Assembly: GCA_011033025.1 (NCBI GenBank)
Contig: WFMF01000446.1
Coordinates: 1-64,000 of the forward strand
Length of the DNA: 64,000 nt
DNA from: Beroe forskalii
Lineage: Eukaryota; Ctenophora; Nuda; Beroida; Beroidae
Reading direction: 5' to 3'
Below, piece by piece: positions 11,637-58,300 of this stretch. The notes beneath the pieces are model-generated. The model ran no database searches. It was given only the letters and a program-made list of their open reading frames with translations, and was not told the origin of the DNA. The position numbers and the translations under genes are program-made. Numbering within the stretch: position 1 is the stretch's first letter; every line of letters begins with the position of its first letter.

Positions 11637-11640
11637 ATTA

Positions 11641-25510: not shown

Positions 25511-26841
25511 ATTTAATCAGAAATAGGACGAGTAGAGTGGTTACGAACATCTTCAATTGTAACAATTAAAACGTCGTGTTCTTGTGATATTTCAATGAAT
25601 ATATCATTCATCATAGTCATACATTCTGAGAAGTTTATTGGTTAGAACATACAACTGACACACAACATATTCATATCACTAAAAGCTCTTATCTTAGCTA
25701 AATCTATAAATAATTGAATTAAATTAATTTATTGGAAAAATGCAATGCACTGAATATATCATACGATAATCTACTGTCTGCTATTATGTGAAATACAATA
25801 TACATTATACAATATACACAGCAATTGGCAATGTCAAGGCACGAGCACTGTACTCAGTACAGTGACGTAATGACATTATGACGTATAGTAGAGAGAGAGA
25901 GAGAGAGTTCCCGCTCAAACCCTATGCTTGTCAATACGTCACTGCATACCAACACTCTGTTGCTCAGTGACTCTGTGTCTTGACCTTGTCAATAGCTGGG
26001 GAGAATTCTGCCCTTGAAGGGCCTAGTGGAGGCTGAGTGGAGCCTAGTGGAGGCTAGTGGAGGTTGAGTGGAGCCTAGTGGAGCCTAGTGGAGGCTGAAT
26101 GGAGCCTAAATGGAGGCTAAAATCATGGCCCCTGGTGGAGATAATATGCTGGCCTCCACAAAATTAAATTACTGTCATGTTTTTACAAAAGAATACATTT
26201 TTTCACATTAGACCATAAATCTAGTATTCAGGCAACACTAGGCCTCCCACTAGAATCCACTCAGCCTCCACTGAGGCTTCACTCAGCCTCCCACTAGGCT
26301 CCTCAGCCCTTGAAGGGCAGGGTACACCACAGCTATTGACAGAGGTCAAGACACAGAGTCGCAGGCAACAGAGTGTTAATGGGAGGCTTATGGAGGCTAA
26401 TAAGCATCATAGGGAAATGTAGCGGTGGCCTCTCTGCCTCTCTAGCCTCCATGCGTCATTTTTTCACCGTGTACTGAGTCCAGTGCTCGTGCATGGACTA
26501 ATGGAATTGCTGTGTAATTTTGTCGTGTATATTGGTACCATTCACATAATAGCACGAGTAGAAGTGTCTCGTATGATATATTCAGTGTATTCACTTTCTG
26601 CCTTGATATTAATTTAATTCACTATTTATAGATTTCAGCTAAGATAAGAATGTTTAGTGATATATGAATATGTTTTGTTCATCCAATTTATGTTCTAAAC
26701 TGGCTTGCGAAACAATTTTCAGAATGTATGACTATGATGAATGAATATATTTCATCGTCAAATATCACAAAACACGACGTTTTAATTGTTACAATTGAAG
26801 ATGTTCGTAACCACTCTACTCGTCCTATTTCTGATTAAATT
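25511..26841. repeat. 1.33 kb foldback palindrome with GGAGGCT-repeat centre
   Basis: The left arm begins ATTTAATCAGAAATAGGACG and its reverse complement ends the right arm. The pairing continues with gaps for about 650 bases per side, through TTGACCTTGTCAATAGCTG and a CTGCCCTTGAAGGGC block, into GGAGGCTGAGTGGAGCC units around about 26130. A 13-base direct repeat CTCGTCTTCTAAA lies at 25498-25510 and 26868-26880. It may be a target duplication if a short unpaired tail belongs to the element. No coding capacity is seen. Confidence 0.8.
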
Positions 26842-27081
26842 GACGAAGAAATCCCTATTCTACACACCTCGTCTTCTAAAGAGTGACACTGGAAAATTGT
26901 CTCATCGCAAGCCATAATAAACACAAATTGGATGGAACAAAACATTTTCATTGCACACTTAAACATTAAACACAATAGCTGAAACCCAGCAAGATTACAT
27001 ACCATCCATATCAAGGCAGTGGCGGAATTAACAGAACATCTCATGAAATGAGGACACTTTTAATAATTAGTAATAAGTGGT

Positions 27082-29403
27082 GGCAAAATGGTACCACAGG
27101 AACACGACAAAAATTAGCCTCCATTAGCCTCCATTAGCCTCCATGGAGGCTGAGTGGAGCCTAAGTGAGGCTCATTTCAAAATTAGCCTCCACGGAGGCT
27201 AGTGGAGCATGAGGCTAATTTTTGAAAAATAGCCTCCACTATGGAGGCTATATTAGCCTCCACTAGCCTCCATTAGCCTCCACTAGCCTCCGCCACAGCC
27301 TCCATGGAGGCTAAATTTTGTTTAGCCTCCACTAGCCTCCACTTAAGAATTAGCCTCCATTAGCCTCCCACAATTTAAAAGTCATTTTGTGCGATAAAGC
27401 CTCCATATGGAGGCTAATGGAGGCTGAGTGGGCTTAAGTGGAGGCTGAGTGGAGCCTAAATCAAGCCTACAAAACACAAATTTCTTGCTGAAAATGGTGA
27501 TTTATGTGTACTAATGTGAAAACAATATATTGCTTCAAACTTTCAGACAGCTCCAACTGTCCTACACTCAGCCTCCACTAGGCTCCCTCAGCCTCACTAG
27601 GCTCCACTCAGCCTCCACTAGGCTCCACTCAGCTTCACTAGGCTCCACTCAGCCTCCACTAGGCTCCACTCAGCCTCCACTTAGCCTCCACTAGGCTCCA
27701 CTCAGCCTCCACTAGGCTCACTGGCCACCACTAGGGCTCCACTAGGCTCCACTAGCCTCCACTAGGATCCAATAAACCACTAGGATCCATTCAGCCTCCA
27801 CTAGGCTCCACTCCAGCCTCCACTAGGCTCCACTCAGCCTCCACTAGCCTCCACTTAGCCTCCACTAGGCTCCACTCAGCCTCCACTAGGTCCACTCCAG
27901 GCCCCACTAGCCTCCACTCAGCCTCCACTAGGCTCCACTGGCCACCACTAGGCTCCACTAGCCTCCACTAGGATCCAATAGGCTCCACTAGCCTCTGAGC
28001 TCCATTCAGCCTCCACTAGGCTCCCTTAGCCTCCACTGGGCTCCACTCAGCCTCCACTAGCCTCACTGGGCTCCACTCAGCCTCCACTAGGCTCCATTCC
28101 TTCTCACTAGGCTCACTCAGCCTCCACTAGGCTCCACTCAGCCTCCACTAGGCTCCGCCCAGCTCCACTAGCCTAGTGGAGGCTAGTGGAGCCTAGTGGA
28201 GCCTAGTGGAGGCTGAGTGGAGCCTAGTGGAGGAAGCTGAGTGGAGGCTAATGGAGGCTGAGGGAGGCTGCGTGGAGGCTAGTGGAGGCTGAATGGAGCC
28301 TAGGGAGGCTGAGGGAGCCTAGTGGAGGGCTGAGGGAGCCTAGTGGAGCTGAGTGAAGCCTAGTGGAGGCTGAGTGAATTCTAGTGGAGGCCTTTGTGTT
28401 GCCTAATACTAGACTTTGGTCTATGTTGCAAAATGTACTCTTTTTGTAAAAACATGACAGTAATTTAATTTTGTGGAGGCTAGCATATTATCTGTGTTTT
28501 TTCATGATTTTAGCCTCCATTTAGGCTCCATTCAGCCTCCACTAGGCTCCACTTAGCCTCCACTAGGCTCCACTCAACCTCCACTAGCCTCCACTAGGCT
28601 CCACTCAGCCTCCACTAGGCTCCTCAGCCTCCACTAGGCTCCTCAGCCTCCACTAGGCTCCACTCAGCTCCACTAGCCTAGTGGGCTAGTGGAGCCTAGT
28701 GGCTTCTAGTGGAGGCTGAGTGGAGCCTAGTGGAGGCTGAGTGGAGGCTAATGGAGGCTGAGTGGAGGCTGCGTGGAGGCTAGTGGAGGCTGAATGGAGC
28801 CTAGTGGAGGCTGAGTGGAGCCTAGTGGAGGCTGAGTGGAGCCTAGTGGAGGCTGAGTGAAGCCTAGTGGAGGCTGAGTGGATTCTAGTGGAGGCCTAGT
28901 GTTGCCTAATACTAGACTTTGGTCTATGTTGCAAAATGTACTCTTTTTGTAAAAACATGACAGTAATTTAATTTTGTGGAGGCTAGCATATTATCTGTGT
29001 TTTTTCATGATTTTAGCCTCCATTTGGAGGCTATAGCCTTCACTAGCACTGTAAGAATAGCTTACATAGAATCCAAAAATGCTAAATTTCAGTTTCCGTG
29101 GAGGCTAATGGAGGCTAAATCTTGAGTGGAGGCTAGTGGAGGCTAAACCAAAAATTTAGCCTCCATGGAGGCTGAGTGGAGGCTGAGTGGAGGCTGAGTG
29201 GAGCCTAGTAGAGGCTAGTGGAGGCTAATATAGCCTCCATAGTGGAGGCTATTTTTCGAAAATTAGCCTCATGCCTCCACTAGCCTCCGTGGAGGCTAAT
29301 TTTTGAAATTAGCCTCCACTTAGCCTCCACTCAGGCTCCACTCAGCCTCCATGGAGGCTAATGGAGGCTAATTTTTGTCGTGTTCCTGTGGTACCATTTT
29401 GCC
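27082..29403. mobile_element. 2.3 kb transposon made of GGAGGCT minisatellite, with 8-bp TSD
   Basis: The octamer TAAGTGGT lies at 27074-27081 and 29404-29411. The termini GGCAAAATGGTACCACAGGA are perfect inverted repeats that run on through CACGACAAAAATTAGCCTCC, about 50 bases. The interior is almost wholly alternating blocks of CCTCCACTAGGCTCCACTCAG and its reverse complement. Two direct copies (28390-28520 and 28890-29020) of a non-repetitive block contain GTAAAAACATGACAGTAATT. An 8-bp duplication is typical of hAT and a few other superfamilies. The terminal repeat itself contains the repeat unit, so the core probably grew out of the TIR. Confidence 0.88.
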
Positions 29404-30294: not shown

Positions 30295-32617
30295 TCACTT
30301 AGCTTCCCCACTCTCTTTTGCTTTAGGGTTATTGATGACGAGGTCTGGTAAGGTTTGTAGCTCTAATGTTTCTTCGGTGTTCTTACGGTTCGCATGTTTT
30401 CTCCGAAATGCGTTTCGAGGGTTAATTCTCCGCATGCATTTCCTTACCACGGCCGATAACCACTTTCTCAGGACTTTGTCAAAACCACTATAGAAAAGAG
30501 GGTTGAGCAAACTATTGATCGGCACTACAATCAGAGCAAATATTTCAAAGGTAATGCTTGGAAGGGAATCATTGCCAAAGTAAACAATAGTTGTGGTGAC
30601 GAGTGATACCCAGGATGCCAACTGTGACCCAATTATCAGGCACACTTTGATGATCAGACCCTTGGCTTCAGCCTGTGGAGACTTGACCTGTTGAACTATG
30701 ATGGCGATGTAGGATGCGATGACCAAACTCAGTATCATGCCCACTGAAATACAATAGACGTACTTGTATACTTGGTAAGATTCTTGATTCTTGAAAACAT
30801 TCTGAATGCACAGTGGGGTTGTACCGTAGTACCCTATCTTTGTATAGTCGAAAATGCTTGGATTGGATGTAATTGATCGAAGCTGATCAAGCATATCCAA
30901 AACACTATCTGTGCTTTCTTCAGGTTTGTACGCATCATAGATCAAACGCACGTGTTCTCTGTCAAAGCTTTTGATGAACGGGTTTTCAAATGTGTTATCA
31001 AGACGAATCTCAGAGACAAACACGTCCTGCAGGAATCTGATTCTTATCGCTGGAATGACCGAGTGAATAAGATTAAGGAAGGTAATGCAGAGAGATGTGA
31101 CTATTACAGCCCGATGAGATATATCGACAAAGACAAAGGTGCACTGGATTCCTCGGATGAAACTCATCAGAGAGACCATGAGGAGGGAGCCATGGGAGGA
31201 GAAGGAGAAGAGAATGCCCAGCAAGTCACAAGGAATGCTGCTTCCTCCACTGGTAAAGGATTTGGCAGTAGTCTCCATTGAAACGCAGGATGAAGTTGCT
31301 AACGGCTATTAGGCAAAGGTAGAGGCCCATCAAGAGATCATAGAATGCGATTGTAATGCACAGGAATGTGTCTATCATCATACTTTTAGAATTATTGTCA
31401 TTTCTAGAAGTAGAAACCTTCTTCACTGCTTTGTATCCAGTCACCACGTTCAGTATGACTACTGCTATACCAGCCAATAGGGATGCCAAGGCCATTGAAA
31501 ATGATTTCATCTTTGACTGTGAAGATGTAAGTATCCCAAAGTTGCAGTCCTCACATTCATCACGACCATTTGGGCAGTGTTTGATGTGGTCGCACCTCAA
31601 TCTCTCCTCAATCCAAACCGAAGCCGGATTATCCGGAGAACAATAAAACCTTCCCGGGCAACCTAACTCATCAAAATTGTTCTTACAATCATTAATTCCA
31701 TCGCATATATGCCTCGCATCGAGCTTCTTGTAATTTAGCTTTTCATTTTCGCCATTGCAAAAGAAATATGCTTTTTCTACAAAATTTTGGCAAAACTTTT
31801 GCCACTCGAACTTTCCAAAGTATGCGAGGCAATCCTGTTCGCAAAACTCTCTTATTTCTGTTGTATTGAGATCCATTAAAAGATAGTTTTCCCTGAAACA
31901 TTGTGCGATTGGATTTTCAATGTAATGTTTGCTTTTTTGATCAAAATCTTTGATGGCAGAGCAATTAACATGGGGCTCAGTTTTACAACGAGATCTTTTC
32001 CTACCATATAAACAAAAGTCAAGTGGTGAGGTGCATCCCATCGTATCATTTCCACAAACAACCCTTACGTTTCCTTGACACAGACACTCGTCACTCGAGT
32101 CATAGCAGTCCTCATTACCGTCACAGACGTTTTGAAATGAAATACATCCCGGTTGCTCGAGGCAGTAAAACACGTCACTCGCCTGAGTCTCTCCTTCACA
32201 CTCGCACTCGTCCGTGAGACACATTGAATAACCATCACACTTACGGTACCGAGGAATAAAGCAGCTCCAGTCTTTGGCTCGCAATACCTTGAACTTCCAA
32301 TCGAGACGGATCACCGATCCAGTGATATCCAAATGGAATGGGCATTGGAAGCCTAGCTCCGGTTTGAATTCCGGAAGGTTTCTATCATCCTGTGCATCAT
32401 CATACCAAATAACTTTGGGTTTGTTAAAGCGGCTGAAGTATAAGGGGGTATAATAGAACAACCCATCCGATGAGCATGATAGATACTGATTTGGATATTG
32501 AAATGACTCCATGAAGCTACTTGAAATAACACGCAACGTGTCTATCTGTGCATGACAGTGTATTGGGTGACAGACCCAGAACAGCATAAATGCAATGGGC
32601 AATGCCATTGCTTGCAC
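30295..32617 (-). CDS. LDL-receptor class A module G-protein-coupled receptor (GRL101-like), one frameshift
   Basis: It is an intronless gene read from 32617 down. A signal peptide (residues 1-24) leads a long extracellular part with LDLa modules at about 110-185 (CDGNEDCYDSSDECLC), 295-320 (CDGINDCKNNFDELGC) and 325-360 (RLRCDHIKHCPNGRDECEDC). TM1 and TM2 follow (SFSMALASLLAGIAVVI; FLCITIAFYDLLMGLYLC). The frame changes near 31250: one extra A in AGGAAGCAGC would explain it. TM3-TM7 then continue to 30295, including LLGILFSFSSHGSLLMVSLMS, a TM7 NPLFY variant of NPxxY, and MSFIRG in place of DRY. The family is the rhodopsin-type LDLa receptors of snail GRL101, cnidarian and placozoan type; ligand unknown. 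It lies antisense inside the last RPRD1 intron. It is either a sequencing slip or a recent pseudogene. Confidence 0.85.
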
Positions 32618-42419: not shown

Positions 42420-42707
42420 AATTGTTGAGGGTCACTCTATGGTTATATTTCATTTTCATTGCGTAAAATCATCGATCGATTAATCGGTCGATGCGTGAAA
42501 CTTTCGCATTCTAATTATACCATTAAAATCTGTCAGTTTTTAACTTTTTATGCTGCTCAAATCAATACGGTTTTAGAAAGTTTCAAATGTTAAGTTCCTA
42601 ATTGAATTGAAAATATCACATAAAATAATGTTCTTGAAATGTCTAGCATAACGTCTATGATAACGGGGGAATAGAAAATGTTGCTCATTTTCTGATGAAT
42701 ACCCGGC

Positions 42708-42863
42708 CTAAAATTTTGCCCAGATGGGATCATGATCGATGTACTGAGATACAGTATTCCAGACGTCATTACTCTCAATCATCAAGCGAACAGCCTCAAT
42801 GTCGTCAGTGAATGCCCTGTCTTCGACATATGGGGCAACCTTAGTTCGGACCAGTTGATACAC
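42708..42863 (-). pseudogene. HAL: Duplicate of the HAL last exon (copy A)
   Basis: It is identical in length (52 codons with stop) and protein sequence to 44974-45129. It has a GTAG acceptor at its 5' edge, preceded on this strand by CTTC. Only silent differences were seen, for example in the codon before NDVW. It could be used as an alternative last exon if the duplication is real, but it ends with the same sequence, so it adds nothing to the protein. Confidence 0.85.
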
Positions 42864-44077
42864 CTACGAAGGGAGGTTGTTAGCAACTTGCACAGAGGAT
42901 GAAAAGAGCCACTTGAATTTAAGGAAACATATCAGTCATCGATTAATGAGAAACTTCTCGGCCCTATTATGGAAGTGTGCCATAAGTGAATGCCATCGTA
43001 CGTGCATGATGAAAGAACTCATGCTGAAAGAACTGATTCTTTAAAATTAAAAATTAAACTCACAGCCCGATTTGAAATTGAATGCAAACATTAACAAAGG
43101 TTTATCACTGCTTTGCGTACTTTAAGCCCCTCTTCGGAAGGGATCACCCAAGGGACAAATAATAACATGCTAGGCTGGTGCAAAGGTGAAAAGGTCAAAA
43201 CACTACTCCCAGCATTTAAATTGAATTATGCATGCGTGCCAAAAATCGTCAAAAATACGAAGTATCTTGATTATGAAGAAAAATATAAATACGCGCATTT
43301 TTCTTTAAATTAAAACTATATCATGACGTTAAATTCCATTTCCTATGAAATAAAAGCTGGATGAGAATAGTCCGATAGGAGATCGTGAAATTTTCGCTGC
43401 AAATACGGCTGATGCGCTGATTTTAGATCCATAAAGGACATAAATAAAAATTACATTGTAAAATCGTATTTTTGGACTCATCTTTGAAAATATGCGTGTA
43501 AATGTAATAGCAACCTAAACCTTGGCCCGAACCATCCGCCGTGCCGCAGATGGAGGGTACCGGGCAGTTTTTTAATGAGTGATTATGACTTAGAATAAAA
43601 CTTTGAAAATCCAATTTTAGACTTAGAGAGATTTGTTTCTGAAAAACTTATTCCTGCCAACTGTCACGAATCTCAGTAAAAGTGAAACATGAAGATTCAT
43701 GAAATTATCATAAATTTTAAACATGGATACATAAAATCCTAAGCTGGTAAATACAATTTATTTCAATTCAAATTGTTTCTGTAGAATGTAGATCACAAGG
43801 ACAAATGATATTTAATTATTATGTTGGACGTTGAAAATTGAAATTGAATATCATTGATCTGCGAAGCGTCTGATATTGAAAAAATATGAACAACTGCAAT
43901 AAAACAGGCCGGACGTGTTGAAGTTGAACTCCTAGTCCTAAGTCCTACTTGCGCGGCTCACTGCCTACTAGTACTAATAAAGTTAAACAGTAACACTCAC
44001 AGACAGTGCATGAGTCGCACATGGAAAAGCCGTGCACGCAGGATATACTTATATACTTTACTCATAGGAGTTCGGCA

Positions 44078-44252: not shown

Positions 44253-44973
44253 CATGGGCGCGCTGAACTCCTACATTCTGCGTGCGCGGCTTTTTCAATT
44301 TCATGCGCGACTCAAGTTTGCGTGTCTTCTGTGCGGCGCTGTGGTGTACAGAGTACACCACAGTGCCACACACTGATATATGAAAGACACGAAAACTTGT
44401 AACTGCAATGCAATGCAGTTCGAACTAACATAATAACAATCACAATATGAATACCTTGCTAATCTCACTAAATACTACTAATACTACGCCCTAGTGGCAA
44501 AAGTCAGAGTCCATGTACCATATGTACTATGCCAAAATCCAAGAATCCAATTATAAGTATAACTCAGCTTGTGAAGGTTGCCATCCAAATCTGCATCCGG
44601 GTACAGATACAGAACTTCAACATCATGCAATTGCAATGCGCCTTTTTGTATTTTATGATTTTATCCCGCTGGTTATACAACTACAAGAATTGTTGAGGGT
44701 CACTCTATCATTATATTTCATTGCGTAAAATCATCGATCGATTAATCGGTCGATGCGTGAAACTTTCGCATTCTAATTATACCATTAAAATCTGTCAGTT
44801 TTTAACTTTTTATGCTGCTCAAATCAATACGGTTTTAGAAAGTTTCAAATGTTAAGTTCCTAATTACATTGAAAATATCAAATAAAATAATGTTCTTGAA
44901 ATGTCTAGCTTGCATAACGTCTATGATAACGGGGGCATAAAAAATGTTGCTAATTTCCTGATGAATACCCGGC

Positions 44974-45129
44974 CTAAAATTTTGCCCAGATGGGATCATG
45001 ATCGATGTACTGAGATACAGTATTCCAGACGTCATTGCTCTCAATCATCAAGCGAACAGCCTCAATGTCGTCAGTGAATGCCCTGTCTTCGACATATGGG
45101 GCAACCTTAGTTCGGACCAGTTGATACAC
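44974..45129 (-). CDS. HAL: HAL exon 10 (last exon)
   Basis: It opens in phase 0 with [18 protein letters not shown] and ends [13 protein letters not shown] stop. It is preceded by an acceptor CTCCCGTAG. It corresponds to the region after 'TPLE' in vertebrate HAL but stops earlier, so the C-terminal tail is shorter. Confidence 0.9.
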   Translation of the reverse strand: MYQLVRTKVAPYVEDRAFTDDIEAVRLMIESNDVWNTVSQYIDHDPIWAKF

Positions 45130-48100
45130 CTACGGGAGGAGGTTGTTAGCAACTTGCGCAGAAGGTGAAAAGAGCCACTTGAATTTAAGGAAACATATCA
45201 GTCATCGATTAATGAGAAACTTCTCGGCCCTATCATGGAAGTGTGCCATAAGTGAATGCCATCGTACGTGCATGATGAAAGAAGTCATGCTGAAAGAACT
45301 GATTCTTTTAAAATTAACAAATTAAACTCACAGCCTCCAAAGGTTCCGTTGTGTGATGTGGGCGTCTGAACTCCAGAGCTTGGCAAGCTGCCAGCAACTC
45401 AATAGCCAGAATATTCTCCAGGTTCTTAACGGCTTTCAGTGCTTTCCTAGCAGACCATCCCCCCATGGACACGTGGTCCTCCTTGCCAGCAGACGTGCTC
45501 TGGGTGTCGGCAGAGGAAGGGAAGCAGAGTGTCTTGTTCTCACTCACTAGCGCAGCCGAGGTGCAGTGCGGGATCATGAACCCAGAGTTCAGTCCTGGTG
45601 ACTCAACTAGGTGTTCAGTGCGGGATCATGAACCCAGAGTTCAGTCCTGTGGAGTGAGTTAGATGTTCAGTGCGGGATCATGAACCCAGAGTTCAGTCCT
45701 GTGGAGTGAGTTAGATGTTCAGTGCGGGATCATGAACCCAGAGTTCAGTCCTGTGGAGTGAGTTAGATGTTCAGTGCGGGATCATGAACCCAGAGTTCAG
45801 TCCTGTGGAGTGAGTTAGATGTTCAGTGCGGGATCATGAACCCAGAGTTCAGTCCTGTGGAGTGAGTTAGATGTTCAGTGCGGATCATGAACCAGAGTTC
45901 AGTCCTGTGGAGTGAGTTAGATGTTCAGTGCGGGATCATGAACCCAGAGTTCAGTCCTGTGGAGTGAGTTAGATGTTCAGTGCGGGATCATGAACCCAGA
46001 GTTCAGTCCTGTGGAGTGAGTTAGATGTTCAGTGCAGGATCATGAACCCAGAGTTCAGTCCTGTGGAGTGAGTTAGATGTTCAGTGCGGGATCATGAACC
46101 CAGAGTTCAGTCCTGTGGAGTGAGTTAGATGTTCAGTGCGGGATCATGAACCCAGAGTTCAGTCCTGTGGAGTGAGTTAGATGTTCAGTGCGGGATCATG
46201 AACCCAGAGTTCAGTCCTGTGGAGTGAGTTAGATGTTCAGTGCGGGATCATGAACCCAGAGTTCAGTCCTGTGGAGTGAGTTAGATGTTCAGTCCTGTGT
46301 GAGGGATGCTATCATGAACCCAGAGTTCAGTCCTGTGGAGTGAGTTAGATGTTCAGTGGGGATCATGAACCCAGAGTTCAGTCCTGTGGAGTGAGTTAGA
46401 TGTTCAGTGTTTAGAAAATTTTTTAAATACGGGTCAGAAAAGTTCAGTCCCGTGGAGTGTTAGTTTCAGTGAGGACAAAAAGCCGGGAATTGTCCTTATG
46501 GGGTTTAGTTTCATTTTAGGGAAAACAAAAGAACAATTCATCCTGGGATATTAAAAATGGCCACAGAACCTTTCAAAGTTGGGGCAATTTGTTCCATCAC
46601 AAATTTGTTTTGAAACTCAATTAATCAAACGGTGGTACTGGCTTCCCTTGGAACTGAATTAAATTTTTGTTTTTAACCCATATTTTCAAAATGTTTAAAT
46701 TTTTTTCTACAATGGATAAATTTAGTAATTCTCATTTGATCATTTGGGAAGCTTTAATTTTTAGTTTCAAAAAAGCAACAATTTGCTTTCAAAGGTAAAA
46801 GGGGAAGTCAACTATTAAATTCCCTAAATCCCCCTGACCCTGCTGAGGGTAATTGCTCCCTTGGACCCTGGGGACCAAAACGTTTAGTGGCCTTTTCTTT
46901 TAAAATTTCCAAATTTTTGCCGGGGAACGCAATTACCTTGGAGGGAAAGGATGGGCTCTACAAAAGGAGGAGTTATTAGTTGGCAAGTGTCTTTAATTTT
47001 TTGTGATATTTTGTACAGGACGCATCTGAGTGTGTAGGGGTCTCACCTGAGGGACGCATCTGAGGGTGTAGAGGTCTCACCTGAGGGACGCATCTGAGGG
47101 TGTAGGGGTCTCACCTGAGGGACGCATCTGAGGGTGTAGAGGTCTCACCTGAGGGTGTAGGGGTCTCACCTGAGGGTGTAGGGGTCTCCCCTGAGGGTGT
47201 AGGGGTCTCACCTGAGGGTGTAGGGGTCTCACCTGAGGGACGCATCTGAGGGTGTAGGGGTCTCACCTGAGGGACGCATCTGAGGGTGTATGGGTCCTGC
47301 ACATCATGTTTCTCCAGCTCGTATATCTCAGAAGGGTACTTGGCACTGTGACAGAGCGCTCTGAAGGCTGCAGCTACACGTTGCTGTCCTGAGTGGGGCC
47401 GTATCTCGTGGACTCGCTCGTCAAATGCCTCCATGTGGCCGAACAAGATGTCCAGGATGAGGGAACACGTCACCAGGGTCGTGTTCAGACAGTGCTTCGC
47501 TCGGTGGAGCGCCTCCGCTCCCACCTGGACCAGGAAGTGGGTGTTAGCGCGCGCTCAACGTCTGATGCTGCCTTCTGATTGGTCAGTGTCATGTCACGCG
47601 CATGTCACGTGCGAGGTAGCTCGAAGGAGTCACCAAGCAGTCCGCCAATATCTAATACGCTGAATATGGTGTGGTGTCCGACCCTTGAGTGGCAAGGCGT
47701 ATTACGCAACGAGATGTGTTTTTTGCAGAGAAACTGAAAGGTTGGGCACCACAGTAACGCTGGTGAGGTATTGTCAATGTCTCTTAAAGTCTCAAGTGAG
47801 AAATGATTTCAAAGTTCATGTCGCACCAGCCCCTGAAACAAATCTAAGGTTCACTTACTGCACAAATGAATTGAGTTCCATTGATGGAGCTGAGTCCGTC
47901 CTTGGCTTTCATCTGGTAAGGAGTAATGCCATTAGCAGCCAGGACCTCCAACGCATCACCCCACCCTGTACTCGGACTCCACATCTTGCCCTCCCCAATG
48001 GCACCCTGAGCCAGGTGAGCCAGGGGTGCCGGTCACCCTCCTCTGTTCCCTTTTGCTGAGAAAAAAGGGAAAATTATTAATTTGGAGTTGCTTCATCCAT

Positions 48101-51100
48101 ACATCAATTGATCTACTACTACTAGAAGGGGGATGGACCCCGAGGGGGCCCAGGCGGCGCCCAGGAGGGAAGCTGCCGGGGCCGAGACAAGCCTTCCAGG
48201 GCCCAAGCCCGGGTGGGAAAGGGGGCCCCTTCCTCCCCTTTCCATTTTCGGGGAAAAGGCTTTGCCCCGGGGGGCCCCCCTTTGTGGCGGGCGGGGGGTC
48301 CTGGTATCCCCGGGACGCTTTAGTTTCCGTTACTGAAGGGTCAGTCCCGGGGAGGGGCCGTGCCTTTGTTTCAGAATCTGCCTCTCTTGGTTTCCAGGCG
48401 ACCGTCCTGTGGGGTAGCTGACGATCCTGTTGAGTTTGAACCTGTCCAAACGGTACCTAATAGTAGTGTCGAAGTACTCGGCCCTAATACTTGCCTAGGG
48501 AGGGCATTTCCCCAGGAAGTGCGATACCGTTTCATCTTCGCTTTCATAAAGGGACAGGTTGCAGGGACAGCGGGGTTCAGTTTCTTGAGGTGGTAGTTTA
48601 GGACTGTGTGACCTGTCAGGAGTTGAGTAGCCACTCTCAGATCCTTCCTATCCATACTGGATGGCTCCTTTGCAAATTTGTCCCTCCACATCATGTTGAA
48701 CATTCTGGGAGGATCCAGCTTTTGTAGGAGCTTATCCAGTCCTCTGGTCTTCCTCCTCATTGCCGCGAAACATACCCCACGCGGTATGGGAGTATTAAGA
48801 CCCTGCGCTGTCGTTTGAGTTGGTCGCCCCAGCTTTTGCTGTTTGGTCGGCCAGCTCGTTCCCCGTACACCCACTGTGGGCTGGAATCCAACTGAGTGTG
48901 ACCTCGTTGGTGATTCCAAGTGAGTTGAGGGAGTTTGATGCCTTTAGAAGTGGCACTTGATAATCGTAGCATTTATCGCCTGAATAGCCGATTTGCTATC
49001 ACAATTTATCAAGATTTGGTGTTACTCAGTGCGTGTCCCTGCAGTATCTCCGCCGTTTTTAGCAACAGCAAAGACTTCTGCTTAAACACCGTACTGTGTG
49101 TAGCCCAAGATGGAAAGGATCACCAGTGGTCCAGGTGACCTGCTGATGGTCCACGGTCACCCTACTCCTCCTGTTCCGTGTGGTCGTTGATTTTAGAACC
49201 GTCCGCACACGACATCAAAGTCACTCACCCTTCGGCTCCTTGTACTCCTCCCGAGACGGGACTAGCACAGTGAACCGTTGGCTATACGAGAATCGGTTTC
49301 ATCGGATCTTGTTCTTTGGGAAGTTAAACTTGGGCAGGGCCCTGATAAACTTCTCGTTCTCACTGATGTGGCTGGTGATGCGCTTTGAAGGCTTTCCAGG
49401 GCGGAGGGAAGCACAATGACCTTGGCAGCACTTCAGACGCATGGTTTCCCTGCAGCGACCTCCCCAACCACAGCGTGATTGGGGTAATCCTCAGACGACA
49501 TCCAGTTGTATGGGTCAAAAGGTGGCCCCGAAATGAAAAAATTTTTCCCCAAACCCCCTTTTTGAACCCCCCTTTAAGGCCCCCCCGGTTGGGGTTTTTG
49601 GGTTTGCCAGCGACCCAAACGTGGGAACCAAAATGAGTTTTGGGGTCGAACCAAAACCCTAAATCCAGCGCATGGGTGATTTCCCCCCCAGGGGGGGCCC
49701 AAACCCGTTTTTCCTGAAATTTTGCATTAGGATAGTTTGGGTTTTTTGCAACAGTTTCGAGGGTTTTTATTCCCCCAAAGCTTTGAGTTTGGGGGTTTCC
49801 CTTAGAAACTTAGGGGAAGTTTTCATTTGTTTCACGTCGTCTACTTTCGAGGCTTACTGAATGACCAGTTCCTCCTATTCGTAAACCCTGACGCAGTGGG
49901 TCTTCAGCTGAGAAAGTTTTAGACCATTTGCCCTCCCCACTGGTTGATACTTTTTTTGGGTTTTTTTTTGGGTTACCCCCCAAGGGGACCGGTAAAAACC
50001 CTTTGGCGGTATTTACCAGTTGGTTTGGGCGCAGTTACTACTGAGACCAGGGATAGCACAAGTTTGGCAAAACCCTGGAGGTCGCACGGGATTTTTGTCC
50101 CTGGTGAACTCAGTAGATCGGTTTATTACAAGGTTCCATAGGAATGGGGATAGAATCCCCCCTGCGGGCATCCTCGTAAAATGGATATGACCTTTTAGCT
50201 TGCCCTGCAGCTCCACCAGGAAAAGCCTAGACCAGATGTTGACATGATCCATCTATTCACGCCTGCCGAGCCACAGTTCTTAAGTTAGGGCCTTATCAAT
50301 TGAGAGTCGACACATTGTAAACATGCTCCTTCTATGTCAAGGAAAGTCCGAGCGCCATCCCCTTTGTTGAGGATGGCCATCTCGGAGTTTCCTGACTAGC
50401 TTATGGGTCGCAGCTGTTGTCGAGCTTCCTCGCTTGAAACTTCAAATTGTTTCTTGCTTAGGCGCTCATAACTCTCAGGTCTGCTTCCGTAGCACAATAA
50501 TACCCTCTCCATCCATTTCAGAATGACGGTGTGAGAGTGATTGTCCTAAAGGATTTGGTATAATCATCCTTCCCAGGTTTCTGGGAGAAAGATACTAGAG
50601 AGTCCCTCCATATTGCAGGAGTATACCCCCATCCGGTAGCTAGCCTTAGCGATGCTCGTGAAAGCACCCCAATGCTCCCCATCCTTTTGAAGCATGATTG
50701 GGCGTACCCCGTCCGGCCCCGCCGCTGAGAGTGGATCGAATTCTTGTAGTGCCCGTTTCACCCTATTCTCAGAGAATATGTGATCCAGACTCACCGATCT
50801 TCGATGTCCACTCCCGCAGCAGTGCTCGAGAGGGTTAGGTTGGCCAGTGAAAAGGATCAGTGCACTTCAGTCATGCGGTCCAAAAGTTTCGGATGGCGTC
50901 TCTGAGAGACCATCCTTATTCTTAACCGCACATAACTTAGTGTCCTTGTTGTCCTTTATGAGACAGGATATCCTTTTGGATTCGGATTTAGATTCCAAAT
51001 TCGCACAGAAATTCCCTGTATTTTGCGGGTCCAAGTATTCCGCAGTTTTTCATACCGCGGGCCTCTTTCCTGATAGTATCAAGTTCCGAATCCCGAGGTA

Positions 51101-54100
51101 TTTTCCAGTGTCTTCTCCTTATCTTTGCCCTCATGTCCCTCCTAGCTTCCCTCACCTCTGGCGTATCCCACGGAAGTGGTTTAATCTTCGCTGACACGTA
51201 TGTCAATTGATCAATCAACATTTAACATGAACATATTCTGAGGCCGCGAATGTTTGACTTATCGCTCACCTGGAATATAAGGCAGACAATCCTTGTTGAA
51301 CATCCTAACCATGTGCTCCACAAGATCTGGACTGCAGCCCGAGTACGCCTTTGCTAGCACGTTGATACGCAGAGCTAGCATCCGACGAGTAGCTTCAAGA
51401 GATAGAGCTTCCCCCACTCCAGCGCAGTGTGACCTGTGATAGTTGCCATGGTTACACCAGCGCAGTGTGACCTGTGAGGGTTGTCATGGTAAGTGGTAAC
51501 ACCAGCGCAGTGTGACCTGTGAGGGTTGTCATGGTAACGCCAGTGCAGTGTGACCTGTGAGGGTTGTCATGGTAACACCAGTGCTGTGTGACCTGTGAAG
51601 GTTGGCATGGTAACACGGAACACCAGCATTCGCATTGAATTCCTTTGTCTTTTGATCACTTGTTCTAGTTCCACGATCTGGTGTGACAGGCCAACGGAAA
51701 TATCAATTACTAAAAAGGTTATTCAAAGAAAGCTGCTGAGCTCACCTGACGATATTGTACTGCAGGTCCACGAGTTTATCGTTCTCCACGACTACCCTTG
51801 ACAGAAGTCCGAAGCCGGTGTTGACCCCGTACTTTATGTATCCCTTGTCTACGATGCCCTCGACAATTCCCCTCGTTTCTGCCAGCCGCCCCATTGTTTC
51901 CTCGCTGAGGGACAGCTGCCACCCACCCTTGCCTGACAGGACGATAATTAGTATTTCTTTCAATTGAATACAGAACAGGGAGAAAGGATTTATTTTTAAA
52001 AGACAGATTGAACTAAAATCGGGAAGTCTTTATAGGGTAAAGCGGGGTGAAGTGGGACAATTTGAGACATATTCAGGTGCCACAGTCACACTTTTAACGA
52101 AAAATTAATTTTTGGTTGATGATTTTAGCAATGAACCCATCCTCTTTCCATAGAATTGGTCGGAAAAATCTCAACCAATGGTTTCATATAAGAAAAAGCT
52201 GTCCATCTTTCCCGCAGCATGTTCCACTTCACCCCTCATGTGGAGGTAAAGAGGGACAGTCTCTGTAGCCCTGAGATAACCATTTGAGAAGTTTATTCTT
52301 CATTGTTGGACATGTACAGTTCTTTAGAATAAGTTTAGACAAAACCACTTTGGAACAGAGAAAAGATTAGAGTCTAATTGGGCAGAATTGGAGAATGGAA
52401 TGAATTGGTCCACTTTACCCCAAAAAAAAATTATTCTTTTAGATTTAAACTTTCAAATTTCATAAAGAGGTTCATATATGGCCAAACATGGAAAATAAAG
52501 TACCTTTTGGCAAGAATTTTGGTTTTGGTCATTTTACAGCCTTTTTAAAAAATGTCCCACTTTACCCGCGCTCACCTAAAAACTTCGTAAATTTGTTGTA
52601 TGGGGAACCATTAATCGATTTTCTCCATTCCAACGGTTCAGTTGTCATCTGAGTGAAGCCCAATTAATGACGAAATTTAATGAGAAAATGTAATTACCTA
52701 TAATTAACACGTTGTGGGGAAAAGGGACACTGATAGTTAACAAGGATAATTATACAATATACGGCAATAAAAAAAGCATTTGCAATTCATAATTTGTTTA
52801 TTAAAACATCCCTTATAAGTTTCTCAGGCATGAAATTTTATTTTCATTGAAAATCATGTTAATGGGGAAAGTGGGACAGTCAAGTCAGATAAAATGAAAT
52901 CATGTATTCCTAAGGAAACAATTATGCTGTGGAGGTTGTTTTTCATCAAGATTTTTCACTTTGGTTTTAGTATACTTTATTTTTTCTTGAAAATAGCACT
53001 AAATGATATGGTATAATAATTTTGGGGGGAAGTGGGACAGTTGCGCAAAAATTGTCAAAAATTCAATAAAAATCAATAATTTTAATTCGTGATGCTGTAT
53101 TAAAAGTTTTAATAGGCATTATTGATATTCTCACATACATAAGTCACAAAACAGGGCGATTTTCGATTAGTTCCATACTTTTTTATCAATTGTCCCACAT
53201 TACCCCCACCAATCCCATAATCAAGATTAAATTCTGTTCCACTTTCCCCACTCACCTCTAAAGTCTTGTGGGCAATAGAATTCCATCTAAATTATAACAA
53301 ATAAATGTCTAGATCATTATAAAAATCAATTGTTATTGCTGTACCACTTTACCCCACAATGGGTAAAATATATAAAATACGACTGTCCCACTTTACCCAG
53401 TGGCTTTTATTGCATGAAATACTGTTGGGGTGTTGCTTTGGAAAATTTTCGAAAATTTGTCCCACTTTACCCCACATCGGTCTTATGCATCATTTTGACA
53501 GTGTTCCTCTTTACCCAAAGTGTAGTCTTCACCATAGCTTTGCATAGGTGAAGGTTTTTTGAAATTTCGTTAAGTGTCCCACTTTCCCCCCAGGTGTTCC
53601 ATTTCACCCCAATTTGTCCCTCTTTACCTCCTGTCCCACTCCACCCCGTTTTACCCTAGTCAGACAGAATTTGAGAAGATTAGTTGCATACTCAGTAGCA
53701 TCAAGATATCGAGGTCGAGACTACTGCCGTCCATGGCGATAGTTTGCTCTGATTCATGAGATGCGCTGCATTCTTCAGATTCTTCAACTCGACCATCCTC
53801 TGAACCTGGACTTCTCTCTTTACGTTTCACTTTACGTGCAACGATCTCAACCATGTCATCGTCACTGTGAAAAATTGGCAATGCCATCAAATGCCAAAAA
53901 TATAATTCACGAAAATAAGATACATCTTAGAACTTAAGAAAGTCAGGAAGCAGGCAATGTGAACAAATTTACCACTTTTAATTCACCTCAGCACGTCCTT
54001 AATGATATCAGAGGGTTTGATAATGTAGAACTCATCCCTGTGGAACTTCTTAAAGTAGCACTGGTCATGTGCCATGTCACAGTCTACCCCAGAATCTTCC

Positions 54101-55104
54101 AATCTTTGTATTGCTTCCTGTGAAGTAACGAATAATCACATCCCTCAATTGTTAATCATTAATAATTTCCATTCAACAAATGCATTTTATTAATAGTTGA
54201 AAATTTTATTGTGAACAGAAATTTTGAAAATGTTAGAAACAATATACGGCCCAATATGTAAAGTATCGCGTTAATCAAGAAAGTGAAATAATGTATCATG
54301 TACCTTGATTACGGACTACGGTGAACAAAACGAACACATAAAATCTCATTCAAAACCTATATCATATTGACTTGAATTATAAAAACTGAAATTGAAATAA
54401 CTCCTTTATAAACATCTTCAATCATATTGAATGAATAAAAGCGCGCATTCTTAAGAACAATCGAGTCAAAATGTATCAGTCACGTACTCAATGATCAACA
54501 CATGACTGTTCTTCTCTTCAATAATAAATTATCGAATATCGATAGGTAGTTTAAATTCGTTCTAGAAGCAGCTGCGTTTGCATAATGTTTAAAACTAGAA
54601 AATATGTATAGTTTCGTTTTGAAATACCGTAAGAGCGGGCATGCGATCAGATGAAGATATGGGCGATTTTTATAGTAAAGCAGCATATAAATATCCATTG
54701 CCATCATATACAGATATACCTAAACATGTATCTGGCAGAGTAAGAGTAACGCATCGGCATAAACGTAAGATTGCACGTACATAAACGTAAATGAACGTAA
54801 AATTGCGCCATTCCAAATGTATATTTCTAAGCACGGTAAATAAGATCAGGTCAACTTCAATAATTAGCGGCTTCAAACCACACAAATGTCGTCACTCCCA
54901 TACCATTAAACTCACCCTGGCCAGATGAGACAAGGATTGGAGTTGGTTGATTATCGGCACGACGATGTTGTGCCCATCTATCTTGACGTGTACACACATC
55001 ACGTTGGTCTCCGTGCGCAGCGGGGTGTGTCTCTTCATGGCGAGACCGCTCTTGGTCTCTATTGGAGGCAGGTCCTCGAAACTTCGCAATTCCTTCCATA
55101 CCAT
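44974..55104 (-). CDS. HAL: Histidine ammonia-lyase gene (nine readable exons, one exon missing)
   Basis: Histidine ammonia-lyase deaminates L-histidine to trans-urocanate in the cytosol, the first step of histidine breakdown. Exons read on the minus strand are 55104-54916, 54117-53987, 53864-53692, 51932-51746, 51433-51270, 48055-47859, 47524-47267, 45594-45332 and 45129-44974. All have GT-AG borders and phases that agree. Family blocks seen: N-terminal [61 protein letters not shown] and IELLAACQ. The exon expected between YTLRCVPQ and LNSGFMI (carrying NSATDNP in relatives) is not found in 45595-47266. The MIO-forming Ala-Ser-Gly exon is damaged. The introns carry a LINE, a TA-flanked element and three splice-site minisatellites. 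As written the gene cannot make active enzyme, but part of this looks like poor sequence. Confidence 0.9.
45332..45594 (-). CDS. HAL: HAL exon 9
   Basis: It encodes [20 protein letters not shown] through [32 protein letters not shown] and TTEPLEA. The KEDHVSM motif marks histidine rather than phenylalanine ammonia-lyase. The donor is GCT|GTGAGT. The acceptor side is expanded into the 45612-46412 array. Confidence 0.92.
45560..46412 (-). repeat. 52-base minisatellite repeating the HAL exon 9 splice acceptor
   Basis: About 15 nearly identical 52-base units. On the gene strand each holds CTAAC (branch-point-like), TCACTCCACAG (acceptor) and then GACTGAACTCTGGGTTCATG of exon 9. The array lies wholly on the intron side of the true exon and fades into poor sequence after 46412. 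A few units carry one- or two-base changes. Confidence 0.93.
46413..47005. other. Low-confidence sequence where HAL exon 8 should be
   Basis: Homopolymer-rich, with inflated runs (AAAAATTT, GGGG, CCCC). No HAL coding block is readable on the minus strand. The missing exon may have been lost in a poorly resolved or collapsed stretch. Confidence 0.5.
47015..47295 (-). repeat. 34/21-base minisatellite repeating the HAL exon 7 splice donor
   Basis: About ten units. Long units of 34 bases carry, on the gene strand, CTACACCCTCAG, ATGCGTCCCTCAG and then GTGAGACC, that is the last 13 bases of exon 7 plus the donor. Short 21-base units in the middle lack the ATGCGTCCCTCAG part. The array extends from the exon edge into the intron. 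Confidence 0.92.
47267..47524 (-). CDS. HAL: HAL exon 7
   Basis: 86 codons in phase 0: [59 protein letters not shown] and RCVPQ. The match to vertebrate HAL is clear (DTDIHALRPHRGQ and VQDAYTLRCCPQ). The acceptor is CTGGTCCAG and the donor is CAG|GTGAGA, repeated downstream. Confidence 0.93.
47859..48055 (-). CDS. HAL: HAL exon 6, active-site exon, damaged
   Basis: It is bounded by TTCTCAG and GTAAGTG. From about 48028 down it reads [37 protein letters not shown] and INGTQFICA, a strong match. The first part should read KGTVGASGDL, whose Ala-Ser-Gly makes the MIO cofactor. Instead AAAGGG is followed by AACAGAGGAGGGTGACCG, six bases shorter than expected, with an in-frame TGA and no Ala-Ser-Gly. 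The neighbouring intron is poor sequence, so error cannot be excluded. Confidence 0.85.
48060..48390. other. HAL intron 5 segment of low-confidence GC-rich sequence
   Basis: Long G and C runs unlike the surrounding intron. Nothing recognisable lies between HAL exon 6 and the LINE. Confidence 0.45.
48391..51221 (-). mobile_element. LINE (RNase H-bearing, Jockey/R1-like) in HAL intron 5, 5' truncated
   Basis: It is read from 51221 down. The linker before the RT comes first ([20 protein letters not shown]), then the RT start ([21 protein letters not shown] near 50700-50770) and [14 protein letters not shown] near 50310-50360. Next are [32 protein letters not shown] near 50130-50220, RNase [21 protein letters not shown] near 48825-48895, and [18 protein letters not shown] near 48560-48615. 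The endonuclease is missing. The pieces lie in different frames with stops, so the copy is dead. It differs in clade and sequence from the 1323-4130 LINE. The stretch 49500-50000 is poor sequence. Confidence 0.8.
51270..51433 (-). CDS. HAL: HAL exon 5
   Basis: It encodes [41 protein letters not shown] and [10 protein letters not shown], aligned with SHSSGVG...CLPYVP of vertebrate HAL. The second Ser of the SSG motif is Ala here and the first is Cys. The donor is CAG|GTGAGC. Confidence 0.93.
51417..51617 (-). repeat. 38-40-base minisatellite repeating the HAL exon 5 splice acceptor
   Basis: Five units. On the gene strand each reads GTTACCATGACAACCCTCACAG and then GTCACACTGCGCTGG, the first 15 bases of exon 5. 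The unit nearest the exon has diverged most in its intron part. The core unit length of 38 is not a multiple of three, so use of an upstream acceptor would shift the frame. Confidence 0.92.
51746..51932 (-). CDS. HAL: HAL exon 4
   Basis: It encodes [53 protein letters not shown] and [17 protein letters not shown] carries the catalytic Tyr of the ammonia-lyase family (Tyr53 in bacterial HutH). Confidence 0.94.
52035..53656. mobile_element. 1.6 kb TA-flanked element made of 'gggtaaagtgggaca' repeats, in HAL intron 3
   Basis: TA lies on each side (52033-52034 and 53657-53658). The ends GGGTAAAGCGGGGTGAAGTG and its complement (CACTCCACCCCGTTTTACCC) are inverted repeats. Variants of GTGGGACA and TGTCCCACTTTACCCC recur throughout, in one orientation in the left half and the other in the right half. 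The TA target points to the Tc1/mariner group. There is no transposase, and the open frames near 53330-53760 are just the repeat. Confidence 0.8.
53692..53864 (-). CDS. HAL: HAL exon 3
   Basis: It encodes [20 protein letters not shown], a Ser/Glu-rich insert ([18 protein letters not shown]) and then [18 protein letters not shown]. The end matches the 'IELDGDRLTTEDLVNLGKG' region of vertebrate HAL. Confidence 0.88.
53987..54117 (-). CDS. HAL: HAL exon 2
   Basis: It encodes [20 protein letters not shown] and [23 protein letters not shown]. It corresponds to the animal-specific N-terminal region after the DGEWL-like strand. The acceptor is TACTTCACAG and the donor is GAG|GTGAAT. Confidence 0.85.
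54118..54915. other. HAL intron 1, no other feature
   Basis: AT-rich intron DNA. A short ATAAACGTAAATGAACGTAAA repeat lies at about 54760-54805. Confidence 0.5.
54916..55104 (-). CDS. HAL: HAL exon 1 (first coding exon read)
   Basis: It starts at [20 protein letters not shown] and includes [18 protein letters not shown] and SLSHLAR. The VHVKIDG strand matches the vertebrate N-terminus (YTVHVRGEWLAVP). The frame is open to an acceptor-like TTTCAG at about 55140, so coding may begin in an earlier exon. The Met at 55104 is the first in this exon. Confidence 0.75.
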
Positions 55105-55379
55105 GATGTTGAGAGGGGTGAGGGGGGATCTCACCTGCTGAAATTTGAAAGTAGTTGCAAAATTAACATCAATGTACTTCAATTATCAATTCATTCTCAA
55201 TTCTATTTAACTATTTAACTGCTAATTAACAATATCACGATGAATAAAATATCATGATGGTACTAAAGAGTCAAGGCGGTGCATGGAGACATAATCATGC
55301 GGGCAACGACAGCTGGATGTCATAACAGGGCGGGTTGGAATAATTAACTGTGAAATTAATAAACACGATATAAATACAT

Positions 55380-58300
55380 AGTCTGGTCAGTATATGCAAA
55401 AATAGGCTCATCTGTGCAAAAATTCAGGAACTTATCCCGCTATGTTATTTGTGCTTCTTATCATGTTAGAAAACATATAAGCCCAGGAGTATTGAAAAAT
55501 ACCTTGGGAAACTCGAAAATTGACCACGCCCTTTTCCGACCGTGGGAAAAATTTATCGATCACAGAAAAAAATAAATTTATTGACATATATAGCATGATG
55601 GGTGTCTAAACCCATGTTTTTTTGGGACGCTGAATCGATTGCAAGGGTTTTAGTCTCTGACCATCACATAAGTCATTAGTGACCACGCCCACCTTTTAGT
55701 GTGGGAATTTTTGAGTCATTTTCACATGATATTTTTCCAAATCAAACTGTGGCATGTTAGGTGTCTAACCCATGTTTTTGGGACGCTGAATCGATTGCAA
55801 GTGTTACTTTTAGTCTCTGACCATCACATAAGTCATTATTGACCACGCCCACCCTTTAGCATGGGAATTTTTGAGTCATTTCATGATATTTTTCCAAATC
55901 AAACTGTGGCATGTTAGGTGTCTAAACCCATGTTTTTGGGACTGGAATCAATTGCAAGTGTTACTTTTTAGTCTCTGACCATCACATGTCATTATTGACC
56001 ACGCCCACCCCTTTAGTGTGGGAATTTTGAGTCATTTTCACATGATATTTTTCCAAATCAAACTGTGGCATGTTAGGTGTCTAACCCCATGTTTTTGGGA
56101 CGCTGAATCGATTGCAAGGTCTATTTTGAGTCTCTGACCATCATATAAGTCATTAGTGACCACATACCCTTTAGCTTGGGAATTTCTGAGTCATTTTCAC
56201 ATGCTGTACTTTCAAACCAAGCAACACACAAGTCACAAATCTTCTTTCATCAGTAGGGCAATTCATTACTTTAAGTGTTATGGCAAACTTTGCCAAACAC
56301 TTTTTTTTGGCAAACTCCAAAAAAATGGAAGCATTTGCCAAAGTTTGCCAAAAATTAAACACCTTTTTGAGCACTTTTGCAACAATTTAGGTACCAATAT
56401 TATGATTTTCAAGGATGAGGAATCGATTCCCAAGGTCTGTTTAACATTTTGACGTTATCCAGAGTCTGTAGCAGAGACCACAGAGAATAGAGTATGAGGT
56501 GTGGCCTTATCAAAGCTTTGGCAAACTCCAAAAAAGTGGAAGCATTTGCCAAAGTTTGCCTAAAATTAAACACCTTTTTGAGCACTTTTGCAACAATTTA
56601 GGTACCAAGATTATGATTTTCAAGGATGAGGAATCGATTCCCCAAGGTCTGTTTAACATTTTGACGCTATCCAGAGTCTGTAGCAGAGACCACAGAGAAT
56701 AGAGTATGGAGGCTACAGTAACAAAATGATATTCATATCCTCTTACTTAAAGCTTTATGCATTCAAGTCCTACGTAGTCCGATCAAACCGTTGTATTAAG
56801 CCCTCAAACCGAAGCATGCACGCTACATTAGTCTGTTCTAGCAGCCTGAAATCAATAATAATAAGGCCCCCACTGCGGACCATTGACCAGTTTCCATGGA
56901 TTCATCCTCAGCTGCGTGGGAGGCGAGTGGAGGCTGTGTGGAGCCATTCATGCTCCCCACCAGGCTCCACCAGCTCTACTAGACTCTCCACTCAGCCTCA
57001 CTCAGCCTCCAGCCAAACCACATAGCCTCCATAGGCTCAACTCAGCCTTTACTAGTAGTGGAGGCTCAGTGGTGCCAAGTGGATGCTGAGTGGAGCCTAG
57101 TAGAGGCTGAGTGGAGACTAGTAGAGGCTGAGTGGAGACTAGTGGAGAGCCGAGGGGAGGATGTTTGGAGCCTAGTGGAGGTTTAGCGGTGTCTAGTGGA
57201 AGCTGAGTGGTGTCTACTGTCTAGTGGAAGCTCAGTGAAGACTAGTGGAGGCTCTGTGGAGCCAATTGGAGGCTGAGTGGAGCCTAGAGGGCTGAGTGGG
57301 AGACTAGTGGAGAGCCGAGGGAGGCTGTTTGGAGCCTAGTGGAGGTTTAGCAGTATCTAGTGGGAGCTGAGTGGTGTCTACTGTCTAGTGGAAGCTCAGT
57401 GAAAGACTAGTGGAGGCTCTTTGGGAGCCTAGTGGAGGTGAGGAGCTTAGTGGAGGCTGAGTGTGGAGCCAAATGGAGGCTAAGTGGGAGCCTAGTGGAG
57501 GCTGGCTGGAGCTTGGAGGCTGAGTGGAGCATGAGTGATGCCTAGTGAGGCTGTGAGTCAGGGAGGCTGTATTTGGCTGGAGGCTGTGTGTGAGCCTAGG
57601 AGGCTCTGTGGAGCCAAGTGGAGGCTGAGGAGCCTGTAGAGGCTGAGTAAAGACTAGTGGAGAGCCGAGGAGGCTGCCTGGTTTAGTGAGGCTTAGTGTC
57701 TAGTGGAAGCTGAGTAAGTGCTCCAATGTCTAGTAAAGCTTCAGCGAAATAATTTTCAGTGGCTTGAGTCAGTGGAGGCCAGAGTGGGTTTCAGTAGAAA
57801 AGGGAGTGAGACTAGTGGGGGAGCCGAGGGGGGCCGGGTTTTTGCCCCGGGGGGAGGTTTAAAAGGGGGTCTAGTGGAAGCTGAAAATGGTGTTTACTGT
57901 CTAGTGGCTCAGTAAGACTGGGGAGACTTTTTTGGGCCGGGGGCTGAGGGGGCTTTGTGGGGCTGAGGGAAACCGAATGGAGGCTAAGTGGAGCCTAGGG
58001 AGGCTGGCTGGGCGGTGGGGGGCTGGGGAGCAAGGGAGAGTTTTTTGGAGGCAGTGGGGCCAGTGGGGCCGGAGCCTGGGGAGGGGAATGGGCCAGTGGG
58101 GGTTGGGGGCCATTAGGCTTTTGGGGAGCCGAGGGGGGCTGGGGCCCCGTGGGGGTTTAGGGGGCTGGGGGAAGCTGAGGGTGCCCACTGTCTAGTGGAA
58201 ACTCAGGGGAAGCCTAGGGGGGAGGCCCGGGCCCCCCTGGGGAAAAAACAGCCTCCACCGGGCCCCCACAGCCTTTCCCAGGGGCCTACTACCAGTAAAA

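Follow-up and report, generated by a model that had tools for sequence, protein, structure and literature searches.

Minisatellites of the mirage kind across exon borders of the histidine ammonia-lyase gene in the ctenophore Beroe forskalii

Introduction

In the first 64,000 nucleotides of contig WFMF01000446.1 of the ctenophore Beroe forskalii (assembly GCA_011033025.1; this stretch is called the window here), the gene for histidine ammonia-lyase (HAL) on the minus strand carries three minisatellites, and each of them lies over an exon edge, in one case a probable one. The single COX1 match in the assembly, translated with genetic code 4, shows 100% identity to Beroe forskalii across the query, and the next named hits, from the ctenophores Tjalfiella and Vallicula, reach 61%; a sibling species may also be the source. 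An amphioxus host was rejected on this result and on the identity of just 47% between CNOT11 in the window and its Branchiostoma lanceolatum counterpart, and a sponge host on the COX1 result. How did three splice junctions of one gene come to be tandemly amplified? The structure is of a known kind, the mirages of amphioxus, here found in a ctenophore, and none was reported for comb jellies in the literature searched. We consider it probable that the arrays are mirage-type minisatellites, produced by ordinary short tandem duplication that was tolerated at exon edges and then amplified. The anatomy was observed directly, and it recurs in two genes other than HAL. Boundary minisatellites, described before in lancelets and human duplications, are thereby recorded for a very distant animal branch as well, in three genes of one genome. 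This makes an old question testable, namely whether exon borders are hot spots of duplication or merely sites of tolerance.

Three arrays over exon borders of HAL

The identity of the gene is supported by several comparisons. Four of the eight HAL exon translations submitted matched Pfam family PF00221, and a PDB search with two exons led to histidine ammonia-lyases for both. In addition, the exons align one by one with the four closest proteins, one of which is from Bolinopsis microptera while the others were taken as ctenophore proteins by likeness. Using Tandem Repeats Finder (TRF), we confirmed the three arrays with units of 38, 34/21 and 52 bases that the initial annotation had listed:

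45564..46409, minus strand: 52-bp array, 16.1 copies, 95% match, over the upstream edge of exon 9 (TRF)
47018..47296, minus strand: 34/21-bp array, 34 bp in 7.7 copies with 21-bp sub-repeats, over the exon-7 donor (TRF)
51419..51616, minus strand: 38-bp array, 5.0 copies, over the exon-5 acceptor (TRF)

The exons were placed as follows, with a slash marking a splice junction here and below:

54916..55137, minus strand: exon 1, the most upstream found (protein alignment)
53987..54117, minus strand: exon 2 (protein alignment)
53692..53864, minus strand: exon 3 (protein alignment)
51746..51932, minus strand: exon 4 (Pfam scan of exon translations and protein alignment)
51270..51433, minus strand: exon 5, beginning after CACAG/G (Pfam scan of exon translations and protein alignment)
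47863..48036, minus strand: exon 6, limits approximate, with a loss of about 7 bases in the GTVGASGDLAPL motif (protein alignment)
47267..47524, minus strand: exon 7, last residues VPQ/ (Pfam, PDB and protein alignment)
46410..47017, minus strand: stretch between arrays, the expected place of exon 8 (exon 8 not found)
45332..45606, minus strand: exon 9, likely acceptor 45606/45607, ACCTAG/TTGAG (acceptor placed by inference)
44974..45129, minus strand: exon 10, including the stop codon (protein alignment)

The exon-5 acceptor at 51433 (NIVR/SHC) and the exon-7 donor at 47267 (VPQ/V, CAG/GTGAGA) are consistent with the homologues. Exon 9 is 90-91% identical to its two closest relatives; the relatives read LV(D/E)SPGLNSGF or near, and the matching residues are coded in the window from 45610. 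A CAG/GACTG site at 45594 lies inside coding sequence, because two full relatives run through it without a break, and judging from the sequence ACCTAG/TTGAG at 45606/45607, still inside the 52-bp unit, is the likelier acceptor. Because exon 8 is missing, this third border could be placed only indirectly. The claim that each unit straddles an exon edge stood for the exon-5 acceptor and the exon-7 donor; the exon-9 edge had been misplaced by 12 bases. The extra copies do lie on the intron side, as had been stated. With the present exon placement, including the probable exon-9 acceptor, the exon overlap is less than one unit in each array (43 bases of exon 9, 30 of exon 7 and 15 of exon 5), and the remainder is intronic.

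The splice signals are repeated with the units. The 52-bp array carries CACAGGACTG 16 times, and the 38-bp array has five CACAG/GTCACAC sites, the exon's own included, at spacings of 38, 38, 45 and 38 bases. In the 34/21 array, nine donor-like sites were counted together with the exon's own (eight CAGGTGAGA and one CAGGGGAGA), spaced by 34, 21, 21, 21, 21, 34, 34 and 34 bases. Since units of 52, 38 and 34 bases are not multiples of three, splicing at the next copy would shift the reading frame. Fifteen copies in the 52-bp array have ATCTAACTCACTCCACAG in common, and the one copy in the exon, ACCTAGTTGAGTCACCAG, departs from it at 7 of the 18 positions, which suggests that divergence of the founder duplicate preceded its amplification. 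Short direct repeats were seen by eye at the joints, namely CACTG at a distance of 52 bases for the 52-mer and GCTGG for the 38/45-mer, and the 21-mer corresponds to a 34-mer that lacks the 13 bases between two CCCTCAG, also by eye. Such repeats at the joints are compatible with a microhomology-type duplication.

The three units are unrelated, again as described in the initial annotation. Five units tested had no second locus in the 345,506 bases of sequence compared, and when the exon-9 array and its exon were compared with the whole assembly by a search that skips very common words, the one match was the query locus itself. Dispersed satellites or introner-type mobile introns were also considered and are unsupported, the arrayed units having no other loci in the same 345,506 bases or, for the exon-9 array, assembly-wide.

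Recurrence in a kinase and a kinesin gene

Arrays straddling a junction were found in two further genes, a neighbouring kinase and a kinesin:

L031:235-345 (contig C521, ~64235-64345): kinase exon end with three extra GTGAGT copies
L050:2519-2829: kinesin intron of 311 bp, with an array over ~93% of its length

At the kinase donor, the exon end TGGAGGG/GTGAGT is followed by three more GTGAGT copies at spacings of 20, 28 and 28 bases. Pfam recognised a protein kinase in another exon of this gene, the arrayed exon itself having no fitting family, and from its translation the gene may be read as MAP-kinase-like (JNK). The kinesin sample comprises 20 of 120 profile matches, in four genes. In the arrayed kinesin (L050), VPYRESKLTRLLQ/ closes the exon and DSLGG opens the following one; within the intron between them, the exon end (SKLTRLLQ/GTTT) is repeated in nine copies, each with AGGTT, and the acceptor of this intron lies outside the array. 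The same gene has a second array that touches an acceptor (L050:695-801).

The kinesin intron is a concrete case for the growth of introns out of exon copies, and it bears on the AGGT-type intron birth suggested in the initial annotation, in which introns would arise through tandem duplication of AGGT-type exon sequence. According to the Rogers/AGGT model, splice sites can reportedly come from duplicated sequence with AGGT. The kinesin intron resembles this model and keeps the idea alive, with about 93% of its 311 bp made of copies of the adjacent exon end. HAL gives it no support; its introns differ from the model in that they are not repeat alone, the arrays filling only part of them and other sequence being present. 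In the kinesin, moreover, the acceptor is not within the array. As a general explanation of the arrays we regard intron birth as improbable, even with boundary repeats proposed as a source of intron gain in the amphioxus study (PMC3087553).

Two side observations were made at other loci. In a gelsolin-like gene (L048:8539-8791), a repeat of 26 bases, exact and at a distance of 227 bases, stands where one exon ends and where the following one starts, and it might be the trace of intron gain that involved direct repeats on both flanks. In another region (G000:C291:171201-174881), seven kinesin matches of two kinds (profile positions 221-264 three times and ~263-302 four times) look like a tandem exon duplication.

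Relation to known boundary repeats

The initial annotation saw in these arrays an undescribed class of splice-site satellites. This does not hold, since the same anatomy is known from the mirages of amphioxus (PMC3087553) and from boundary repeats in human DNA (PMC2812944). Mirages are minisatellite-like tandem duplications of the intron-exon boundary at 5' and 3' borders (Ebner et al. 2010, PMC3087553). The mirage genes named are Adh3, the globins BflGb6 and BflGb9, PGBD5 and troponin C (PMC3087553, PMC3902484), with PGBD5 as an additional gene (PMC3902484) and Adh3 units of 10-72 bp (PMC3087553, PMC3902484). Like the Beroe arrays, they are boundary duplications at donors or acceptors, and many copies carry AG/GT signals. 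In Beroe, each unit is likewise composed of exon, splice signal and intron (for exon 9 with its probable acceptor), a donor (exon 7) as well as an acceptor (exon 5) is involved, and the units of one border are unrelated to other loci (five units; one array assembly-wide). The Beroe arrays differ in their ctenophore instead of cephalochordate host, in reaching up to 16 copies and in occupying three borders of one gene. In amphioxus, borders of both types carry such arrays, RT-PCR showed splicing to be regular (PMC3087553), and length differences were reported; the Beroe arrays were read from the genome sequence.

In human segmental duplications, boundary repeats occurred in 162 alignments before manual checks, 27 intron modifications were left after them, and such repeats can alter splicing or form introns (PMC2812944). 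Like the Beroe arrays, these are minisatellites (mean unit 30 bp), some of them at exon-intron boundaries; unlike them, they were detected by comparing recent paralogues, and about half lie inside coding exons (PMC2812944). For ctenophores, no such boundary arrays were reported in the searched literature on tandem repeats, minisatellites and intron gain, a search that mostly covered papers free of subscription and these in part. The main text of the Beroe ovata genome paper does not contain the words 'tandem' or 'intron'. For Hormiphora, TRF classed 13% of the genome as repeats (PMC8527503).

A proposed scheme of tolerated duplication

From this anatomy we infer the duplication, the amplification and the choice of splice site as follows. 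A short tandem duplication, probably aided by a few bases of microhomology, would happen to span an exon border. Splicing would continue with the copy adjoining the exon, so that the extra copies would become neutral intron. An equal event within an exon would mostly be removed by selection, while duplications at borders would survive. The array could then grow and be homogenised by slippage or unequal exchange, with the exon copy remaining under selection. Such a scheme needs no border-directed process.

Are arrays concentrated at exon edges?

The number of arrays in HAL is not unusual. Outside this gene, 32 arrays (period at least 15, score at least 150) were counted in ~99 kb from 31 other loci, and 15 with a score of at least 100 in five random 10-kb stretches. 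The window contains 15 arrays with a score of at least 150, three of them in HAL. The genome is rich in minisatellites, and three arrays in one 10-kb gene are therefore ordinary. Related minisatellites of the TAGTGGAGG type, with 10/21-bp units, occur at 26021-29359 and 57056-57676 in the window and also at locus L017.

The initial annotation proposed a process tied to splicing or transcription, such as R-loop or spliceosome-linked breakage, which specifically duplicates exon-intron borders. We examined the position of the arrays in two ways. First, an edge test was applied, in which an alignment score of at least 30 with at least 6 exonic and at least 6 intronic bases was required. It scored 3 of 17 edges in HAL and 1 of 25 in five other genes (4 of 42 together), and 3 of 39 in the four kinesins. 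The same test scored 192 of 3000 random positions, 205 of 2904 intronic ones, 350 of 5000 from all sequence but HAL and 406 of 3000 in HAL introns; these controls are strict, with positions inside long arrays counted too. Compared with the background of 7%, neither HAL (P=0.11) nor the 42 edges (P=0.34) stand out, which argues against border targeting. Of the three kinesin edges that scored, the KIN3 donor is a questionable one, with no visible array in the bases inspected and no TRF array.

Most of the 25 non-HAL ends were retained because their splice context could be recognised; the numbers kept are 4 of 5 for the kinase, 5 of 7 for RPRD1, 1 of 3 for the YIPF-like fragment, 2 of 6 for the myosin tail and 13 of 24 for the gelsolin-like gene. 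Two retained ends, the RPRD1 exon-2 donor and the YIPF acceptor, are without a clear context. The gelsolin, YIPF and myosin labels are putative, being readings of translations. Pfam found protein kinase, CID, CREPT and 7tm_1 on the non-HAL gene fragments submitted to it and no fitting family for the myosin- and YIPF-like ones. In a looser edge count, two myosin ends beside a microsatellite scored 34 and 43 and two gelsolin-like acceptors 32 and 52, and none of these four ends has a unit across the border under the stricter test. In an early form that used the score only, with 45-base probes, the HAL borders reached 54, 88 and 55 and 15 other ends 11 to 19, and 5% of 400 random positions scored at least 40.

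Second, a per-array test was run on eight genes (HAL, the kinase, RPRD1, the gelsolin-like gene and four kinesins, with RPRD1 and one kinesin having no array), leaving out the myosin-tail and YIPF-like fragments; several non-HAL exon ends are approximate. Here, 6 of 12 arrays lay across an edge or within 10 bases of it, compared with 2.34 expected (P=0.009), and with a score of at least 100 the count was 6 of 8 against 1.78 (P=0.0006). This excess, together with the recurrence of the structure in the kinase and the kinesin, speaks for a border process. In contrast, the counts without HAL were 3 of 8 against 1.99 expected (P=0.31), and 3 of 5 against 1.5 at the higher score (P=0.14). The rule behind these figures was chosen after the first result: overlapping TRF rows were united, two kinesin exon ends were changed and 10 bases were allowed. 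The first form, which took the best TRF row and a 6-base straddle, placed 5 of 13 arrays at edges against a null of 1.88 (P=0.022). Among those counted was an 18-bp array of the second kinesin that is doubtful, and the kinesin donor and kinase arrays were missed because their TRF rows end before the exon. The eight-gene sample is small, and the discovery itself determined part of it.

Base composition has to be considered as well. The G+C content is 0.50, 0.61 and 0.53 in the arrays and 0.55, 0.58 and 0.52 in their exons, compared with 0.31-0.32 in two intron stretches, and this difference alone could favour edges. The claim of a border-targeting process was not borne out. Border targeting is neither established nor dismissed, the excess being largely owed to the discovery gene HAL, and we regard such a process as unlikely. 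Nothing observed in this analysis, which had no test aimed at them, indicated R-loops or the spliceosome. In a bolder reading, tandem duplication would genuinely concentrate at the exon borders of Beroe and would lengthen or even create introns genome-wide, as the kinesin intron would illustrate; this too seems unlikely to us.

Several points weigh against tolerated duplication followed by amplification, the explanation that we prefer. If arrays are placed uniformly in HAL and about one unit of exon is allowed, 3 of 3 on edges has P=0.0004, a post hoc figure, and the HAL edges do stand out when the kinase and gelsolin-like genes, whose introns are poor in arrays (61 of 2934 positions, 2.1%), serve as the control. 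Both observations also favour a border process, and therefore chance with a selection filter may be an incomplete story. Furthermore, the use of splice sites in Beroe was read from sequence, and is to that extent presumptive. Finally, HAL has no exon 8 and has lost about 7 bases in exon 6, and because the assembly is defective here or the gene is broken, the array lengths and the integrity of HAL are uncertain.

Missing exon 8 and the quality of the assembly

HAL exon 8 (~90 residues) is absent between the second and third arrays and was not found in the assembly. Within the window, four ctenophore-type proteins gave no match to it at E up to 1, and the HAL proteins of amphioxus and Nematostella gave only weak exon-8 pieces elsewhere, at 32253-32414 (E 0.13 and 0.055). 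A PF00221 search of the assembly (216,145,372 bases in 1134 contigs; E up to 0.01, best candidates scored) returned five matches; every one belongs to this gene, and profile positions 280-362 are covered by none of them. A second HAL allele, sought in the whole assembly to see polymorphism, was not found either, leaving one HAL locus. In exon 6, about 7 bases are gone from the GTVGASGDLAPL motif. A faulty assembly seems to us somewhat likelier than a dead HAL gene, given that one HAL locus was found and that the exons are otherwise well kept.

These defects bring in the possibility that noisy, badly assembled reads inflated or created the arrays. The missing exon, the exon-6 indel, odd homopolymer-rich sequence noticed by eye (46410-47017, ~48130-48340 and ~49520-50020) and duplicated neighbouring blocks could be taken for it. 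However, the copies vary by substitutions and in unit length (34/21, 38/45), the units are gene-specific, and the kinesin on another contig has the same anatomy. The lengths may still be wrong, but an artefact as the origin of the arrays is very improbable.

Other features of the window

Three further observations were made in and around HAL. The HAL intron stretch 52033-53658 is a 1.6-kb dispersed element with 39 scored assembly matches at 94-97%, and the intron after exon 5 (48800-51200) contains pieces that, read from translations, resemble a decayed non-LTR retrotransposon. A 95% copy of 44688-45335, with a second HAL last exon, lies at 42420-43067, and this copy stops 3 bases inside the donor end of exon 9. 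Farther away, a block with CNOT11 and an RPRD1-like gene occurs twice, at 7358-15159 and 18709-25348, with 98.6% identity in the CNOT11 part and 87% beyond, and it represents either a tandem duplication or two haplotypes placed consecutively.

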